From: a virus
DNA length: 23,358 bases
Virus record (IMG/VR): IMGVR_UViG_3300044631_000020
Coordinates: 1-23,358 of that record
Reading direction: 5' to 3' (one strand)
Below are positions 2,940 to 23,358 of this stretch, one piece after another. Position 1 is the stretch's first letter, and every line of letters begins with the position of its first letter. A program made the position numbers and the translations under genes. The notes below the pieces were generated by a model that made no database searches, was not told the origin of the DNA, and was given only the letters and a program-made list of their open reading frames with translations.

Positions 2940-3067
2940 TTGATGTACTAGAAATACTGCTTTGGTTAGCAGTGCCTATGAACTACATCTATTGGATCTT
3001 TATTCACAATGATTCCGCCGCTAAACAAATGGTATCCGATGGTTCAGCCGGGAGGCGAGCCGACTAA
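2936..3067 (+). CDS. 43-residue membrane protein
   Basis: The ATG overlaps the previous stop (ATGA at 2936-2939), and the ORF runs MIDVLEILLWLAVPMNYIYW then IFIHNDSAAKQM to TAA at 3065-3067. Residues 4-24 form a hydrophobic span. Its last 59 bases overlap the next gene in another frame. The coupled start and membrane character fit the small-membrane-protein run of this lysis-like cassette. Function is unknown. Confidence 0.5.
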   Translation: MIDVLEILLWLAVPMNYIYWIFIHNDSAAKQMVSDGSAGRRAD

Positions 3068-11604: not shown

Positions 11605-11823
11605 ATGAACACACAAATACCACCAGACGAGCGCCGACAACTGGCAGAAAAAGTTGGCATCAATGAACAGTATCTTTACCAGTGCCTGACGGGCCGGCGA
11701 GAGATGTCAGCTTGGGAGGCTGTTCGGGTAGAGCAGCAGACCGAGGGGCGGGTTACTCGGCAGATGGTGTGCCAGAGCAGTTGGCAGTCTATCTGGCCTG
11801 AGTTGGTGGAGATCAAAGCATGA
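11605..11823 (+). CDS. Cro/YdaS-like HTH transcriptional regulator
   Basis: 72 residues. A helix-turn-helix occupies about residues 9-40 (RRQLAEKVGINEQYLYQCLT, then GRREMSAWEAVRVEQQTEGR), followed by VTRQMVC and a short WP-containing tail. 'LAEKVGIN..YLYQ.LTGRR..S...AVR.E..T.G.VTR' is the pattern of small YdaS/Cro-type phage regulators. The gene sits immediately right of three operators and reads away from the leftward operon, the position of cro in lambdoid phages. It probably binds TCTAGC-N5-GCTAGA. No ribosome-binding site precedes the ATG, so translation may be leaderless. The stop overlaps the primase ATG. Confidence 0.8.
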   Translation: MNTQIPPDERRQLAEKVGINEQYLYQCLTGRREMSAWEAVRVEQQTEGRVTRQMVCQSSWQSIWPELVEIKA

Positions 11824-13877
11824 CTAACCTAACAACAATATTCCCCAACGGCTTCGCGGCTGCCATAGAGAGCCAAGACCTGATCAACCCAGAAGAAGGG
11901 TTCAGGAAGCACTGCGAGGCGAGTGGCCTGCTGGTCAAAGAGATTATTGCAGACGGTGAAATTCATCGTGTGGCGCATGTGTCTTCTAAGAAGGGTGCAT
12001 TGGATGGTTGGTACATTTTGCACTCCAGCGGCAAGGTTCCTGTGGGCATTGCAGGGTGCTGGAAAGAGCCTGTGTTTGAAGTCAAGTGGGTGGCAGACAC
12101 TGGCAGGCAGATGTCGTTCACTGAGCGCTTTGAGCATGACAAGTGGATCGCTGAAGTCAAGGCCAAAAAGGAAGCTGACAGGCTGGCTTCTCAGGCCGTG
12201 GCAGCAGAAAGGGCAGAAGATGAGGTTGGGACGTATGCAGATGCGTCTGATGACCATCCATACCTAGTCAGGAAGCACATTGGCGCTCACGGGATTAAGA
12301 TTGACAGGGCAGGCAGGCTCGTTGTGCCGGTCATTGATCAGGGTGGGGAAATCCTGAGTTACCAGACCATTGATGCAGATGGCAACAAGCGGTTCCTAAA
12401 AGGTGGCAAGATTGAAGGTGGGTTTTATGAGTTGCGTGGCAACCGCAAGATCGTGTTCATTGGTGAGGGGTTTGCCACATGCGCATCGATCCATGAGGCG
12501 ACAGATTACACCGTGTTGGTGGCGTTTGACTGTGGCAACTTGGCAAAGGTGGCCAAGAGCGCCAAAGAGATGTTCCCAGGTTCAAAGATCATCATCGGCG
12601 CAGACAATGACCAGTTCACGGAGGGGAACCCTGGTGTCACCAAGGGCAGGGCTGCGGCGGCACTGGTGTTTGGGGAAATTGTGTACCCATCATTTGGGGA
12701 CTCGGACATGGTGGACAACAAGCCAACAGACTTCAACGATCTACATTGCCTGCAAGGTCTGGATGCCGTCAAAGAACAGATTGAGCGCGTAGCTGGCCCA
12801 ATGCGGGACAAACTGGCGTTTGAGTTCTCAAGGATTGATAGCCTAGAACTCACTCAAATCAACTGGATCGTGGATGACTACATCGAAAGCGACAGTTTGG
12901 CGCAAGTGTTCGGTGACCCTGGCGGTGGTAAGAGTTTTGTCAGCATTGACCTAGCCTGTTGCGTGGCCACCGGACGCGCATGGCATGGCCATGAAGTCAA
13001 GCAAGGCTCGGTGTTCTACATCGCAGGCGAGGGGCACAACGGCTTGGCCAGAAGGTTTAAGGCGTGGCAGTTGGGCAATAGCCAAACCCTTGATGGCGCA
13101 CCGTTGTACAAAAGCCACCGTGCGGCGCAGCTGTATGACGCAACAGAGGCGGCAGTGGTGGCCGAAGCCATCAAAGAGTTGTCACAGCAAGCTGGCACAG
13201 TGCCATCCATGATCATCATTGACACCTTGGCCAGAAACCATGGGGGTGACGAAAACAGCACTCAAGATATGAATGCGTTCATTCAACACCTTGATGTGTA
13301 TCTGCGCCAACCATGGAAATGTTGCGTCTTGGTGGTTCACCATTCAGGCGTGGCAGACAAGGATAGGTCAAGGGGTAGCACGGCATTGAAAGGTGCGCTT
13401 GATGCTGAGTACCGTTGCCAGTTGGATGCGGGAACCAAAACCATAGCCTTTGAATCCAAAAAGATGAAAGATGCAGAAATGCCTGCACCTAAGAATTTCC
13501 AGATCACACAAGTTGATCTGCCCATCCAAGACAAGCACGGCCTGCCAGTAAAAGGCGCATATTTGACCGCCGTAGACATCAGTGGGCTAATGGGTAACAT
13601 CCAAAAGCGGGTGGTTTTGTCAGGCAACCAGCGCATTGCTTTGAACAGTTTGGTGGCCATTGAAGTCAAACGGGCAGCAGATGGCATCGAGGGCTTTGCC
13701 GCCATGGTGGACTACGACGAATGGCGTGATTCAGCCAAAAGCCATGGTTTGAATGCTCGGCGGTTCAAAGAATCCATTGAAGCATTGGCTAAGAAAAACA
13801 TGGTTTTGGAGAATTCTGGTGTGTACCGAACTGTACCGAAAAGTACCGAAATCGGTACAGAACGTACAGAGGCTTGA
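11820..13877 (+). CDS. replicative primase-helicase (Toprim + RepA-like ATPase)
   Basis: 685 residues, coupled to the regulator by ATGA. The first 130 residues resemble the N-terminal DNA-binding part of phage primases (GWYILHSSGKVPVGIAGCWK). Toprim lies at about 165-310: VVPVIDQGGEILSYQTID, then FIGEGFATCASIHEA (E216) and IIIGADNDQ (D262, D264), with DFND near 304. A RepA-like AAA ATPase follows: Walker A GDPGGGKSF at 365-373, YIAGEGHNGLARRF, Walker B MIIIDTLARN and VVHHSGVADKDRSRGSTALK. It should prime and unwind DNA at the phage origin. The last 19 codons (VYRTVPKSTEIGTERTEA) are made of the GTACCGAA iterons that continue past the stop, so the origin overlaps the gene end. Confidence 0.88.
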   Translation: MTNLTTIFPNGFAAAIESQDLINPEEGFRKHCEASGLLVKEIIADGEIHRVAHVSSKKGALDGWYILHSSGKVPVGIAGCWKEPVFEVKWVADTGRQMSFTERFEHDKWIAEVKAKKEADRLASQAVAAERAEDEVGTYADASDDHPYLVRKHIGAHGIKIDRAGRLVVPVIDQGGEILSYQTIDADGNKRFLKGGKIEGGFYELRGNRKIVFIGEGFATCASIHEATDYTVLVAFDCGNLAKVAKSAKEMFPGSKIIIGADNDQFTEGNPGVTKGRAAAALVFGEIVYPSFGDSDMVDNKPTDFNDLHCLQGLDAVKEQIERVAGPMRDKLAFEFSRIDSLELTQINWIVDDYIESDSLAQVFGDPGGGKSFVSIDLACCVATGRAWHGHEVKQGSVFYIAGEGHNGLARRFKAWQLGNSQTLDGAPLYKSHRAAQLYDATEAAVVAEAIKELSQQAGTVPSMIIIDTLARNHGGDENSTQDMNAFIQHLDVYLRQPWKCCVLVVHHSGVADKDRSRGSTALKGALDAEYRCQLDAGTKTIAFESKKMKDAEMPAPKNFQITQVDLPIQDKHGLPVKGAYLTAVDISGLMGNIQKRVVLSGNQRIALNSLVAIEVKRAADGIEGFAAMVDYDEWRDSAKSHGLNARRFKESIEALAKKNMVLENSGVYRTVPKSTEIGTERTEA

Positions 13878-14009
13878 TGTACCGAAGCGTGTACCGAAAT
13901 GTACCGAAACGTACCGAAATGTACCGAAGCAAACCCCCTGTGGTGTACCGAAACGTACCGAACGTGTCTATAGACACGTTCAGGTTCGGTACAAAAAGGG
14001 TTTCGGTAC
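13823..14009. repeat. GTACCGAA iteron array, candidate replication origin
   Basis: Ten exact GTACCGAA copies begin at 13823, 13833, 13843, 13879, 13891, 13901, 13911, 13921, 13945 and 13955. Two exact inverted copies (TTCGGTAC) lie at 13985 and 14002, and a one-mismatch inverted copy at 13851. Most neighbours are spaced exactly 10 bp, one helical turn, as expected for cooperative binding by an initiator on one face of DNA. The array runs over the 3' end of the primase-helicase gene and into the 174-bp gap before RusA. That position next to the replication gene makes an origin the leading explanation. A regulatory array is the alternative. Confidence 0.7.
13960..13981. repeat. perfect 22-bp palindrome in the iteron array
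   Basis: The half GAACGTGTCTA (13960-13970) is followed directly by its exact reverse complement TAGACACGTTC (13971-13981). It begins at the end of the last direct iteron (13955-13962) and is followed by the inverted iterons, so it marks the point where iteron orientation flips. Confidence 0.75.
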
Positions 14010-14051: not shown

Positions 14052-14414
14052 ATGGGGATGGTGGCCATGATTGAAGTGGAAATGGACATGAAAATTGTGT
14101 CAGTGGCCAACATGCGGTTGCATTGGGCGGCGAAAGCTAGGCTGACCAAAAGTCAGCGACAAAAAACCAGAAACGCGCTGGCGGCTGTTGCGCAGTCTTT
14201 TGGTGTGGAAGTGCTGCCAGTGACCGTTGTGCTGACTAGGGTGGCTCCAAGGCGCTTGGATGGGGATAACCTTCAGTCTGGCTTCAAGGCCGTGCGTGAT
14301 GGCGTTGCTGATTGGCTTGGCGTGGATGATGGCAGTGGTTTGATCGATTGGCAGTATTGTCAGCGGTCTAGCGGCCCGAAGGTTTACAAGGTTGAGATCG
14401 AAGTGATAACATGA
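14052..14414 (+). CDS. RusA-like Holliday junction resolvase
   Basis: 120 residues. The core RRLDGDNLQSGFKAVRDGVA then DWLGVDDGSG matches the RusA signature: D70-G-D72-N73 with a following Lys79, and DD92-93. RusA cleaves Holliday junctions symmetrically as a dimer. MRLHWAAKARLTKSQRQKTR is the usual basic N-terminal segment. The first 13 residues are Met/Val-rich and the start is uncertain: ATG 14052 (AGGG 4 bases upstream) or ATG 14067 (5 residues shorter) are both possible. It follows the iteron array and precedes TerS, consistent with resolving replication or recombination intermediates before packaging. Confidence 0.82.
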   Translation: MGMVAMIEVEMDMKIVSVANMRLHWAAKARLTKSQRQKTRNALAAVAQSFGVEVLPVTVVLTRVAPRRLDGDNLQSGFKAVRDGVADWLGVDDGSGLIDWQYCQRSSGPKVYKVEIEVIT

Positions 14415-14498: not shown

Positions 14499-15011
14499 GT
14501 GACTGAAAACTTGGTGTCAGAGATGACAGTGCAAAGAGAAGGCCCAGGCCGTCCGGCCTTGTTTCCGGCAGAACACACCGTTTGGCAAAATATCCTTCTT
14601 GGCATCTCAGAAGGTAAAAGTCTAAGCAGCACACTTCGAGCCGAAGGGATGCCCAGTTACTCACTGGCGCGTCAAATGATTAAGAACAATCCAGAGTTCA
14701 GGGCGGCTTACGAAAAGGCCGTAGAAGACCGCGCAGACCGTTTGGCAGAGGAAATCATTGAGTTGTCAGACAAAGAGTTGCCTGATGGCTTAGAAGGCCC
14801 TATGGCTAGTGCTTGGGTTCAACAGAAACGATTGCAAGTTGAAGCGCGCAAATGGGTAGCTGCAAAACTTAAACCTAAAACCTATGGTGATCGCATTGAC
14901 GTGGCCGTTACTGATCACAGGATTAGCGTGATGGATGCGCTGACTCAAGCCAAACAACGTGTGTTGATGGATGACAGTAACGTCATGGATGTTGATGCAA
15001 AGGAAGCGTAA
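14499..15011 (+). CDS. terS: terminase small subunit
   Basis: 170 residues from GTG 14499, with AGGAG 7 bases upstream. An N-terminal HTH-like region (EGKSLSSTLRAEGMPSYSLA, then RQMIKNNPEFRAAYEKA) is followed by a long helix (EDRADRLAEEIIELSDKELP) and the typical TerS block LQVEARKWVAAKLKPKTYGD. It recognises the packaging site and loads the large subunit, which follows after 333 non-coding bases. The C-terminal 30 residues (VMDALTQAKQRVLMDDSNVM) are probably the TerL-interaction tail. The gene follows RusA after an 84-bp gap. Function is well supported by motif and by adjacency to TerL. Confidence 0.85.
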   Translation: MTENLVSEMTVQREGPGRPALFPAEHTVWQNILLGISEGKSLSSTLRAEGMPSYSLARQMIKNNPEFRAAYEKAVEDRADRLAEEIIELSDKELPDGLEGPMASAWVQQKRLQVEARKWVAAKLKPKTYGDRIDVAVTDHRISVMDALTQAKQRVLMDDSNVMDVDAKEA

Positions 15012-15149
15012 TTGTCGCCCAATGGCCAAAATTTGTACAATTACGCGCACGCGCATGCGAGTTGCGCAGACGCAACGAAAAGAAGGCTCGGCAAGCAGAA
15101 AAGTGCAGGCTACTTAATACAATGACCATTATGTTAAGTTGACCCTAAG

Positions 15150-15238
15150 TTATCCACAGAAAAAAGAATGACAAAGTATTACAGTTTAAGTTATGCACAG
15201 GTAATTGTGGACAAGTGTGCATAACTGCCTGTGGACAA
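15150..15238. promoter_or_regulatory. cluster of five DnaA-box-like sites
   Basis: TTATCCACA (15150-15158, +), TTATGCACA (15191-15199, +) and TGTGCATAA (15216-15224, reverse of TTATGCACA) fit the TTATNCACA consensus exactly. TGTGGACAA at 15206-15214 and 15230-15238 are the reverse of TTGTCCACA, one mismatch. The two forward sites lie in a repeated AAGTTATNCACAG block. Five sites in 89 bp is far above chance and resembles a bacterial oriC. Confidence 0.72.
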
Positions 15239-15265
15239 GGCAAATTCCCACCCGCTGGCCGCGGT

Positions 15266-15292
15266 GGGGGGGGTAGGGCCGGAGGGAAAGGG
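15266..15292 (+). other. potential G-quadruplex motif
   Basis: Four G-tracts: G8 at 15266-15273, GGG 15276-15278, GGG 15284-15286 and GGG 15290-15292, with loops TA, CCGGA and AAA. All loops are 7 bases or shorter, so the canonical G3+N1-7 pattern is met. Confidence 0.5.
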
Positions 15293-15314
15293 CCGCGGGA
15301 ACGGTAGCCCCGCG

Positions 15315-15344
15315 AACATTTTTAAATTTTTTTTTAATAAATAA
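15315..15344. other. AT-rich tract, possible DNA-unwinding element
   Basis: Thirty bases before the TerL ATG contain only one C; all others are A or T, in runs such as TTTTTAAATTTTTTTTTAAT. It follows a very GC-rich segment and lies 77 bp from the last DnaA box, the typical position of an unwinding element. It also leaves TerL without a Shine-Dalgarno. Confidence 0.45.
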
Positions 15345-16871
15345 ATGCAAACCACGATTTACAAACCCGAAGATGAGCAGGAACTGATGGCCACGCTGTG
15401 GACACCGGCGATCGCAGACGACCCCGAAGCCTTCGTGCTGTTTGCTTTTCCTTGGGGTCAGGAGAACACGCCTTTGGCGAACTTCAAAGGCCCGCGCAAG
15501 TGGCAGCGCGAAGTCTTACGGGACATTGCAGCCCACGTCAAGCGGCAGAAGGGGTTAGTAGATTTTGAAACCCTGCGCCAAGCCGTGTCGTCTGGCCGAG
15601 GGATTGGCAAGTCTGCCTTGGTATCTTGGTTAACGATCTGGATGTTATCCACGCGCATTGGCTCGACAACGATCATTTCGGCGAACTCGGAAGCCCAGCT
15701 GCGGGCGGTGACATGGGCTGAGATCACGAAGTGGTTGGCGATGAGCATCAACAGCCATTGGTTTGAGGTGTCGGCCACCAAGGTAGCGCCTGCGAACTGG
15801 TTGACTGAACTGGTTGAAAAAGACCTTAGAAAAGGAACCCGTTATTGGGCGGTTGAGGGCCGCTTGTGGTCTGCTGAGAATCCTGACTCTTACGCTGGTG
15901 TTCACAATCACGATGGTGTGATGGTGATTTTTGATGAGGCCAGTGGTATTGACGACAGTATTTGGGCTGTGACGGCGGGATTTTTTACTGAGAACACACC
16001 AAACAGGCTTTGGTTGGCGTTCTCCAATCCGCGGCGCAATACGGGTTATTTTTATGAGTGTTTTAACTCTAAGCGGGACTTTTGGACAAATAAGGTTGTG
16101 GATGCCAGGACGGTTGAGGGGACAGATAAACAAGTTTATCAGGGCATTATTGATGAGTACGGCCCTGATTCAGCGCAGGCGCACGTTGAGGTTTACGGCA
16201 TGTTCCCGTCTGAAGGTGATGACCAGTTTATACCGGCGAACATTGTGGATGAGGCCATGGCGCGGCCTAAGTACAAGGATCAGACAGCGCCGATCATCAT
16301 TGGAGTTGATCCTGCAAGGTTTGGTGCTGATGCTACGGTGATTGCGATCAGGCAGGGTAGGGATATTGTGAGAATTGACAGGCACAGGGGTGATGACACG
16401 ATGACGGTGGTGGGGCATATTATTGAGGCGATGGAGGAATTCAAGCCTGCGATGGTGGTGATTGACGAAGGTGGGTTGGGTGCTGGCATTGTTGACCGTT
16501 TGAAGGAGCAAAGGTACAAAATCAAAGGTGTCAACTTTGGCAATAAATCGGCAAATCCAATCATGTATGGCAATAAAAGGGCTGAAATGTGGGGGAAAAT
16601 GAAGGATTGGTTGAAAAGTGCAAGCATCCCAAAAGATAGATTCTTGAAAACTGATTTAATTTCGCCTATGATCAAGCCGGATTCAAAAGGCACGATCTTT
16701 TTGGAGTCAAAAAAGGACATGAAGGCAAGGGGCTTGGCCTCGCCTGATGCGGCTGATGCGATATGTGTGACTTTTGCTTTTCCTGTGGCGCATCGTGAGT
16801 ACAATGAGAGCACTAAGCGCAGGGCTTATGCCGGCAGTGCTGGGGTTACAACTTCTTGGATGGGGTCTTAA
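15345..16871 (+). CDS. terL: terminase large subunit (P22-like)
   Basis: 508 residues. The ATPase has Walker A SSGRGIGKSALVSW (G84-S90), Walker B VMVIFDEAS (192-200) and a coupling motif near NRLWLAFSNPRRNTGYFYE. The nuclease has IIGVDPARFGADATV (D322), MVVIDEGGLGAGIVD (D374) and SPDAADAICVTFAFP (D468, D471), an RNase H-like metal centre. It translocates DNA into the procapsid through the portal and cuts concatemers. The start is uncertain: ATG 15345 has no Shine-Dalgarno (AT-rich leader), whereas ATG 15387 (MATLWTPAIADDP) has AGGA upstream. I keep the longer form. The portal downstream is P22-like, consistent with this class. Confidence 0.93.
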   Translation: MQTTIYKPEDEQELMATLWTPAIADDPEAFVLFAFPWGQENTPLANFKGPRKWQREVLRDIAAHVKRQKGLVDFETLRQAVSSGRGIGKSALVSWLTIWMLSTRIGSTTIISANSEAQLRAVTWAEITKWLAMSINSHWFEVSATKVAPANWLTELVEKDLRKGTRYWAVEGRLWSAENPDSYAGVHNHDGVMVIFDEASGIDDSIWAVTAGFFTENTPNRLWLAFSNPRRNTGYFYECFNSKRDFWTNKVVDARTVEGTDKQVYQGIIDEYGPDSAQAHVEVYGMFPSEGDDQFIPANIVDEAMARPKYKDQTAPIIIGVDPARFGADATVIAIRQGRDIVRIDRHRGDDTMTVVGHIIEAMEEFKPAMVVIDEGGLGAGIVDRLKEQRYKIKGVNFGNKSANPIMYGNKRAEMWGKMKDWLKSASIPKDRFLKTDLISPMIKPDSKGTIFLESKKDMKARGLASPDAADAICVTFAFPVAHREYNESTKRRAYAGSAGVTTSWMGS

Positions 16872-22354: not shown

Positions 22355-22783
22355 ATGAAATATATTTGTATAACCGAAGTTGATGCAGTTACAAAAATCC
22401 CTTGTACTGTTGAGCCACAGCGCACAGGCCCATCAATGCCCAATGTCAAAGGTTGGGTTTACGCATGGCATGACAAATCAAATTGGCCTATTGGAACAAC
22501 GTCTGATGGTACATACCTTAGTGCGCCCAAATATTACGGCACTTGTGATGACGATGCCGATACAACCCTAGCGGGCGTTTTACAAGTATTAACAGAAGAA
22601 GAATACAACACAGCCAGAACTGCCGAACATGAAGCCCGTAGACCTTATCCATCTTGGGTTGGTTACTTGGACACAATGACATGGGCAGCACCCGTAGCAA
22701 GACCCGCTGATGCAATTATAAATGGTGGAAATGTGCGTTATCAATGGGACGAAGCCACAATCAACTGGATTGCGATGGCATGA
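22355..22783 (+). CDS. conserved phage tail-associated protein
   Basis: 142 residues: MKYICITEVDAVTKIPCTVE, GPSMPNVKGWVYAWHDKSNW, APKYYGTCDDDADTTLAGVL, QVLTEEEYNTARTAEHEARR, PYPSWVGYLDTMTWAAPVA and YQWDEATINWIAMA. The 'YGTCDDDADT...G....ITEEEY......E..AR.PYPSW' motif marks a small protein family common beside phage fibres. Function is unknown, probably a minor fibre-associated or assembly protein. It occupies the position that the 1843-2202 gene has in the left cassette. ATGA couples it to the sulfotransferase. Confidence 0.76.
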   Translation: MKYICITEVDAVTKIPCTVEPQRTGPSMPNVKGWVYAWHDKSNWPIGTTSDGTYLSAPKYYGTCDDDADTTLAGVLQVLTEEEYNTARTAEHEARRPYPSWVGYLDTMTWAAPVARPADAIINGGNVRYQWDEATINWIAMA

Positions 22784-23358
22784 AAGAGTTCTTCTTTATC
22801 TCAGGTTTGCCAAGGTCAGGTTCAACCCTGCTCTCGGCTATTCTGCGTCAGAACCCTGAGTTCTACGCAGATATTTCCTCGCCAGTACAACACTTGGTGG
22901 CTTCAACCATCAATGTTATTACTGGAAGCGAGAGCAATCACCTGATAGATGAAGATAGACGCAAGCAAATACTTAAAGATTTATTTAACGCTTACTACAA
23001 AGCAGTATTACCAAACGTAGTGTTTGACACTAGCAGAGGTTGGACTGCTAAGACATCATTGCTAAAAGACATTTACCCGCAGACTAAGATTATTTGCTGT
23101 GTGCGTGACTTGCCTTGGATACTAGATAGCTTTGAGCGTATTGCCACAAAGAACTCTTTATATGGTGCTGCACTAACAGATAATGAAGCAAATCAGACAG
23201 TTACCACAAGATGCGATGCTTTGATGGATGTAAAAAAGGAAGGCCAAGTGGTCAAGCCTTATTATTTCCTAGAAGAAGGCTTACTGTTAAATCCTGACAT
23301 GATTATGTTGGTTGAGTATGAATCCTTATGCAAACAGCCAGAGAGCGTGATGCGTGAG
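22780..23358 (+). CDS. sulfotransferase, N-terminal part (3' truncated by window)
   Basis: 193 residues are visible. The 5'-phosphosulfate loop is FFFISGLPRSGSTLLSAILR (GLPRSGSTLL, residues 9-18), and a 3'-phosphate-binding-like segment ICCVRDLPWILDSFERI lies near 106-121. Together these identify a P-loop sulfotransferase using PAPS to sulfate a hydroxyl or amine. The middle contains TAKTSLLKDIYPQTK. Similar genes occur in tail-fibre regions of freshwater and cyanophages, where they may sulfate host surface glycans or a virion component; that use is inference. The start overlaps the previous stop (ATGA), so it is part of the adhesin operon. Confidence 0.82.
   Translation, partial: MKEFFFISGLPRSGSTLLSAILRQNPEFYADISSPVQHLVASTINVITGSESNHLIDEDRRKQILKDLFNAYYKAVLPNVVFDTSRGWTAKTSLLKDIYPQTKIICCVRDLPWILDSFERIATKNSLYGAALTDNEANQTVTTRCDALMDVKKEGQVVKPYYFLEEGLLLNPDMIMLVEYESLCKQPESVMRE

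Follow-up and report, generated by a model that had tools for sequence, protein, structure and literature searches.

Between the terminase genes TerS and TerL of an uncultured phage, we identified a cluster of DnaA-box-like sites belonging to an element which, as sequence comparison indicates, is conserved and phage-specific. On balance, we regard the cluster as a replication element predicted to bind host DnaA and to form one half of a split phage origin. The window analysed here is a whole IMG/VR record of 23,358 bases, probably a fragment given that its relatives measure 34-38 kb. Along its plus strand, a primase-helicase gene (11820-13877), assigned through Pfam and PHROG as Toprim_3 plus AAA_25 and encoding the likely phage initiator, is followed by a gene for a RusA-like Holliday junction resolvase (14052-14414), the TerS gene (14499-15011; GTG start; Pfam Sf6_terminase) and the TerL gene (15345-16871; PHROG terminase large subunit). 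Farther along, a Sulfotransferase-family gene (Sulfotransfer_3, E 1e-14) at 22780-23358 runs off the end of the contig.

Five DnaA-box-like sites, three of them exact TTATNCACA and two TTGTCCACA, occupy 89 bp (15150-15238) between TerS and TerL, confirming the observation on which a preliminary description of this DNA was built. Boxes 1 (TTATCCACA, 15150-15158) and 2 (TTATGCACA, 15191-15199) are spaced 41 bp apart on the plus strand, followed on the minus strand by box 3 (TTGTCCACA, 15206-15214), which is found in many close relatives, box 4 (TTATGCACA, 15216-15224), for which the close relatives L016 and L019-L022 have no exact site, and box 5 (TTGTCCACA, 15230-15238). One more exact TTATNCACA site is located at position 3000, bringing the exact sites in the window to 4 where 0.75 were expected, a number reached in 0 of 100 shuffles; counting sites with at most one mismatch across the entire window gave no enrichment (20, with 22.4 expected). 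The unusual feature is therefore the clustering of near-match sites, not their number: the maximum of TTRTNCACA sites in any 90-bp span was 3 across 2000 dinucleotide shuffles (attained in 6 of the 2000), compared with the 5 observed. Rather than being scattered evenly, the boxes form a single cluster both in the window and in the near-complete relatives G015, G019 and G039, which share its terminase family (family A below), and the cluster is kept in relatives more widely. The boxes, G-rich segment and A/T run of the preliminary description are all real, although two features were missed: a conserved motif to the left of the boxes (15113-15137), with core CATTATGTTAA at 15127-15137 and a partly conserved flank, CTT.ATACAA.G.C, and an iteron array at 13823-14009. 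Among open-licence PMC papers, searched by title and the start of the abstract, none was found on a DnaA element beside phage terminase genes.

Conservation of the motif and boxes was examined in three samples. The first comprised at least 80 IMG/VR loci selected by TerL similarity and not on boxes; among the loci listed, 32 of 80 carried at least three TTRTNCACA sites within 130 bp, no more than 2.8 kb upstream of TerL, and no such cluster was found elsewhere in the 492,353 bases of these loci. Twenty-six of the 32 represent the motif and box element and 6 are iteron-like 9-bp arrays of another clade, while among those listed loci with at least 2.3 kb of upstream sequence the cluster was present in 24 of 56. 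A motif scan recovered 24 of the 26 elements, with L013 and L014 carrying the motif with one change, and at readable positions in these loci (again among those listed) an exact TTATNCACA occupies box 1 in 24 of 27 and box 2 in 25 of 27. Many of the loci lacking a cluster correspond to clade A2 (TerL 81-86% identical), and others, e.g. L011, L025 and L036, have kept the motif with fewer exact boxes. The second sample, 80 viral loci drawn from at least 119 stretches, was selected only on the pattern TTATNCACA-N32-TTATNCACA-N6-30-TGTGNAYAA. Among the loci listed, CATTATGTTAA begins exactly 23 bp before box 1 in 69 of 80 (59 exact, 10 with one change), the remaining 11 consisting of 8 clade A2 arrays, assigned by TerL identity, and 3 others (L112, L115 and L129). 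For the third, the same pattern was searched across 84,980 species of bacteria and archaea, each represented by a single genome, yielding 88 stretches from which 80 loci, mostly of 8 kb and a few much shorter, were used. A DnaA match (E <= 1e-10) in 36 of these 80 provides a positive control for the pattern. The motif was present at 23 bp in just one, L253, a phage contig binned in a metagenome-assembled genome (MAG) and encoding a TerL 71% and a TerS 66% identical, and a copy of a host oriC was consequently rejected as the source of the element.

Pooling 45 distinct elements (26 of family A from the TerL-selected loci, together with 15 of family B and 4 of family C from the box-selected loci) gave identities of 0.97 for the motif, 0.96 for box 1 and 0.93 for box 2, compared with 0.62 in the spacer and 0.59 in the interval separating the boxes. 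Boxes are not always 41 bp apart: this spacing was found in 0 of 39 loci recovered solely by the motif and box 1 (two are cut off and some are one base off), and family D boxes occur at 55 and 78-80 bp; 36 of these 39 nevertheless possess at least two boxes in 135 bp, with L350 and L358 among the other three being cut. Searching window positions 15060-15360 against 50,697 phage and 72,556 plasmid records returned matches that were all short, none covering more than 20% of the query and most falling in the A/T run. Among the plasmids, four Enterococcus records aligned with 60 bases spanning boxes 1-2 at 77% identity (E 3), and the coverage of the family B core in a DNA similarity search was at most 36%.

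The element occurs with four TerL families, namely A (that of the window), B, C and D. Family A is about 31% identical to B and C, which are 74% identical to each other, and the family D TerL, which falls in the same broad large-terminase PHROG, shares 31% identity with A over 51 residues and 23-24% with B and C over about 195 residues. The TerS proteins of A, B and C are 26-33% alike, all matching Pfam Sf6_terminase, and the primase-helicases of A and C are 33% alike, those of A and B being too divergent to align. Given that the same element accompanies such divergent TerS, TerL and primase-helicase proteins, phage proteins appear poor candidates for its reader; its constancy suggests that it is probably read by host proteins, with DnaA the foremost candidate.

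In families A, B and C, the element was located between TerS and TerL in 16 of 16 new loci in which both genes were detected (39 loci examined). Among 15 loci with a family D TerL, no match to the TerS of A, B or C was identified, the TerS of this family being poorly recognised. In one of these, L343, the order is primase-helicase, RusA-like gene (called by resemblance; it has no PHROG match), element, methyltransferase/ParB-like gene, weak TerS match (E 0.0004) and TerL, and in L360 and L365 a small gene before TerL has no PHROG match. Despite its very divergent TerL, family D retains the order primase-helicase, iterons, RusA-like gene and element, and no TerS-like gene was seen on the primase-helicase side of the element; the gap between TerS and TerL does not appear essential. 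The direction of the element matches that of TerL in A (32 of 33 distinct elements) and B (17 of 17), and is inverted in C (17 of 17) and D (15 of 15). Where a primase-helicase gene was found (67 distinct elements of 99 examined), it pointed at the element in all 67, its stop codon lying 609-2215 bp away (median 1365; at least 1 kb in 59 of 67). In G040 (IMGVR_UViG_3300034068_000046), the first and last 2.8 kb repeat one another with an approximately 86% ungapped match, providing two versions of the region, DnaA element included.

These orientations bear on the possibility that the conserved sequence is a DnaA-controlled, sigma-70-like promoter on the minus strand (TGGATA, 17 bp, CATAAT), with its -35 hexamer inside box 1 and a transcript that could also activate an origin. 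A promoter scan did find this site, with 9 of 12 matches; the conserved motif, read on its reverse strand, gives CATAAT, and its constant 23-bp offset from box 1 corresponds to a 17-bp promoter spacer. We nevertheless consider a promoter unlikely: the number of promoter-like sites found was 2 where 0.9 were expected, conservation runs past the presumed start, and the transcript would lead away from TerL in two families (A and B) but towards it in the other two (C and D), such that no common gene would be served.

More doubtful still is that the element is a packaging site recognised by terminase, with or without DnaA as a helper. In addition to the consistent position between TerS and TerL in families A, B and C, TerL lies downstream of the element, in TerL's own direction, in 82 of 82 distinct elements with a TerL match, and in the clades inspected a G-rich/AT module precedes the terminase genes, whether immediately or with other genes intervening. 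However, the same element is found with TerS proteins of 26-33% identity and in both orientations, six clade A2 records with an 81-84% identical TerL lack it, and no TerS match was obtained on its far side in family D, whose TerS is poorly recognised. A packaging role is not needed to explain the cluster, and its placement between TerS and TerL seems somewhat better read as gene order than as packaging function; the G-rich/AT module alone is a candidate packaging site.

This module consists of a G-rich stretch (15245-15317; 77% G+C, made up of 34 G and 22 C) and a pure A/T run of 29 bp (15318-15346), the longer of two pure A/T runs of at least 18 bp in the window and its least stable 27-30 bp, the last two bases of which begin the TerL ATG. 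On the motif side of the boxes, positions 15110-15209 also rank among the three least stable 100-bp stretches. The preliminary description had joined boxes, G-rich segment and A/T run into a single oriC-like layout. As stated, such a unit was rejected: relatives carry the module without boxes, and the boxes occur in both orientations relative to it, families C and D and a small number of close relatives having them inverted. This separability argues against a simple oriC-like unwinding unit. The module may serve as a promoter, a packaging site or an unwinding site, for which the A/T run is a candidate. An intrinsic terminator before TerL was likewise judged unlikely: the fold of 15236-15344 includes a 6-bp G+C stem ahead of the A/T run but is no stabler than shuffles (z +0.35), and a scan gave no terminator there. 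In some relatives an extra 1.1-1.9 kb or so separates the A/T tract from TerL, marking a cargo spot (L010 4551-6000; L253 2129-3517; L017, L018, L028-L032 and L039) that holds genes where looked at, including in L253 one for a 463-aa protein without a Pfam match.

Upstream of TerS in clade A2 (L065 4930-5440, L062, L055, L061 and L078), arrays of 9-bp units precede the same G-rich/AT module. The unit varies between TGACCCAAA, TGACTCACA and TTGTCCACA, and up to 16 DnaA-box-like sites are present; it is possible that phage iterons are converging on the DnaA box, or that DnaA is being recruited. The arrays also raise the question of whether the boxes of the window are sites of an unrecognised phage protein that match TTATNCACA by accident, given that the three unit sequences replace one another at the same place and that G032 and G027, with TTGTCCACA arrays, encode Pol A. 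We think this improbable for the motif and box element, which holds steady across lineages whose iterons drift.

The second half of the proposed split origin would be the iteron array at 13823-14009, which overlaps the 3' end of the primase-helicase gene and is separated from the boxes by about 1.1 kb containing the RusA-like gene. It comprises 13 GTACCGA sites (10 forward, 3 reverse), with 6 of 12 steps exactly 10 bp, and includes a 22-bp perfect palindrome (13960-13981); 3 further sites occur in the rest of the window, none of them near 15.1-15.3 kb. Relatives possess arrays of other sequences at the same place (GCACCGAA, GAACCGAA and CGTCCGGA), and several have, in place of the palindrome, an inverted repeat around GGGTATATAAACCC or similar. 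Iterons are also present in family B (CCGGTTTA in G043 and G046; weak in G044 and G045), family C (ACAAATGG) and part of family D (CATCCGAA), and in 3 of 4 family B genomes the iteron region contains DnaA boxes as well. At G043 27475-27730, iterons GTAAACCGGTA have DnaA boxes beside them, resembling a classical compact iteron origin more closely than does the family A arrangement.

Iteron sequence was compared with protein sequence across 28 family A members grouped into three iteron types of 16, 8 and 4 sequences; L120, with a fourth type, was left out. Fifty-four columns separate at least one type, all of them within columns 591-698 of the 699-column primase-helicase alignment (37 in 591-672 and 17 in the tail overlapping iteron DNA), and no type-separating columns were found in YdaS (17 sequences), RusA or TerS. 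Identity within versus between types was 0.91-0.95 versus 0.88-0.94 up to column 590, and 0.79 versus 0.53 in columns 590-672. The AF2 model of the protein is of low quality (mean pLDDT 38), with confidence confined to about residues 601-672 (13620-13835), the part interpreted here, which have the secondary structure of a winged helix. Foldseek matches of the low-quality model include T7 gp4 (best E 2e-6, TM 0.11) and, somewhere along its length, the winged-helix domain 5v89_C (71 columns, E 0.04). As judged from these alignments, iteron type co-varies with the predicted C-terminal winged helix of the primase-helicase. Because the coding end adjoins the iterons, this link may partly be hitch-hiking, and linkage alone could carry both.

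A role in replication is further indicated by the distribution of DNA polymerase genes. Among 22 records, the element was identified in 12, none with Pol A, and Pol A in 7, none with the element (Fisher p 0.0007, kinship not corrected); adding 16 further records with the element and no Pol A gives Pol A in 0 of 28 element records, many of which are fragments. Neither feature was found in G035 and W01, nor in G020, whose contig ends 80 bp from TerL. No Pol B match was obtained in 21 records, W01 being annotated with a 'family B' polymerase that the search did not match. A phage-coded DnaA (Bac_DnaA_C) had no match in 40 of 41 records, window included, and was rejected as the reader of the element, given that the only match, phage MW202483, lacks the element. 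The matching protein of that phage (L086 31423-31719; 98 aa) contains little beyond DnaA domain IV (Bac_DnaA_C, E 1e-17) and could, from its sequence, compete for DnaA boxes; the phage also has Pol A. No clear turn in GC skew coincided with the element. Among 399 genomes belonging to the same order as a Burkholderiales MAG, 5 encoded TerL relatives at E <= 1e-60 (best 71% identity), and no box cluster was present in the loci of about 4 kb around them.

The element accompanies the primase-helicase cassette across divergent terminases and is missing from records that encode a phage Pol A, which makes replication its likeliest role, and recruitment of host DnaA for this purpose appears the best supported of the options initially raised. 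Another of those options, a sponge, in which numerous phage copies would postpone firing of the host origin by titrating DnaA, would be in keeping with several good boxes per genome at a presumably high copy number and with boxes and motif forming the most conserved part. We judge it quite unlikely: titration needs neither a fixed, conserved spacing nor an extra motif, most elements have 2-5 boxes, and the association with the primase-helicase cassette and the lack of Pol A would be left unexplained.

Under the split-origin reading that we favour, host DnaA would bind the boxes at 15150-15238, as their sequence and conservation suggest, and the primase-helicase would use its C-terminal winged helix to bind the iterons that overlap the end of its gene, at a distance of 1.1 kb, as the co-variation suggests. 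The two complexes might then cooperate, through a loop or through the opening by DnaA of AT-rich DNA (either next to box 1, on its motif side, or at the 29-bp A/T run), thereby loading the helicase and subsequently the host replisome. Use of the host replisome is proposed because searches of fragments and near-complete records revealed neither a family A nor a family B DNA polymerase gene in these phages. Several considerations weigh against a split origin. DnaA may be dispensable to a phage that encodes a primase-helicase, the position between TerS and TerL in families A, B and C would be accounted for by packaging too, and the clade A2 arrays show that box-like sequences can arise as iterons. 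The lack of a clear GC-skew turn and the records G035 and W01, with neither element nor Pol A, also count against it. The 1.1 kb between iterons and boxes is likewise unlike the minimal origin of plasmid RK2.

More tentatively, these phages may represent a widespread class of replicon with a split origin, in which a primase-helicase swaps its winged helix together with its iterons, and a lineage-independent, host-read element of CATTATGTTAA and DnaA boxes, separated from the iterons by about 1 kb, works from that distance and whichever way round it lies, its carriers being without a family-A polymerase and their relatives with one lacking the DnaA element. Most uncultured phages are without a known replication origin. 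Were the proposal true, the signature of CATTATGTTAA, 12 bp and TTATNCACA would flag a phage origin directly in metagenomic contigs and distinguish phages reliant on the DnaA and replisome of the host, and the families would offer a natural series for how DnaA works away from an iteron-bound initiator. The winged-helix and iteron swaps provide ready pairs for decoding initiator specificity.

Bacterial oriC is a chromosomal locus, usually near dnaA, and the element resembles it in possessing a cluster of exact DnaA boxes beside DNA of low stability, a likeness underlined by the DnaA matches among cellular loci with the same box pattern. It differs in belonging to a phage record with no dnaA gene or chromosomal context, and in the motif at 23 bp, absent from 79 of the 80 cellular loci. 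The alpha protein of satellite phage P4 carries a superfamily 3 helicase, and origins of its type have iterons at both cis sites; here the helicase is AAA_25 and the second cis site consists of DnaA boxes. Common to both is the combination of a Toprim primase and a helicase in one protein, which recognises the origin in P4 and is predicted to do so here, as outlined for P4 in an excerpt of PMC4234260. The same excerpt, which also treats RSF1010, describes the archaeal plasmid pRN1, whose origin, like the one proposed here, immediately follows a replication gene encoding a protein with a winged helix at its end; it differs in having a stem-loop and, in that account, no iterons and no DnaA. In Pseudomonas phage vB_PseuGesM_254, DnaA boxes and AT-rich DNA have similarly been predicted as a phage origin, by software and in one genome, with no terminase placement or conservation analysis in the portion of PMC11512268 consulted, and for alphaproteobacterial phages part of PMC9437464 reports no positional asymmetry of predicted DnaA sites. 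The iteron plasmid origins of P1, F, RK2 (oriV) and pSC101 share with the phage arrangement, as proposed here, iterons for the replicon's own winged-helix protein, boxes for host DnaA and an AT-rich tract, according to sections of PMC4980987. The minimal RK2 origin holds boxes, iterons and AT-rich element together, and inverting one of its four boxes stops it (same sections of PMC4980987), whereas in the phages the iterons and main DnaA element lie about 1 kb apart with genes between, forming no compact origin, and box orientation varies. In place of a Rep protein, the candidate initiator of the phages is a Toprim_3 and AAA_25 primase-helicase, and their DnaA boxes are accompanied by a lineage-independent CATTATGTTAA placed 23 bp from box 1.
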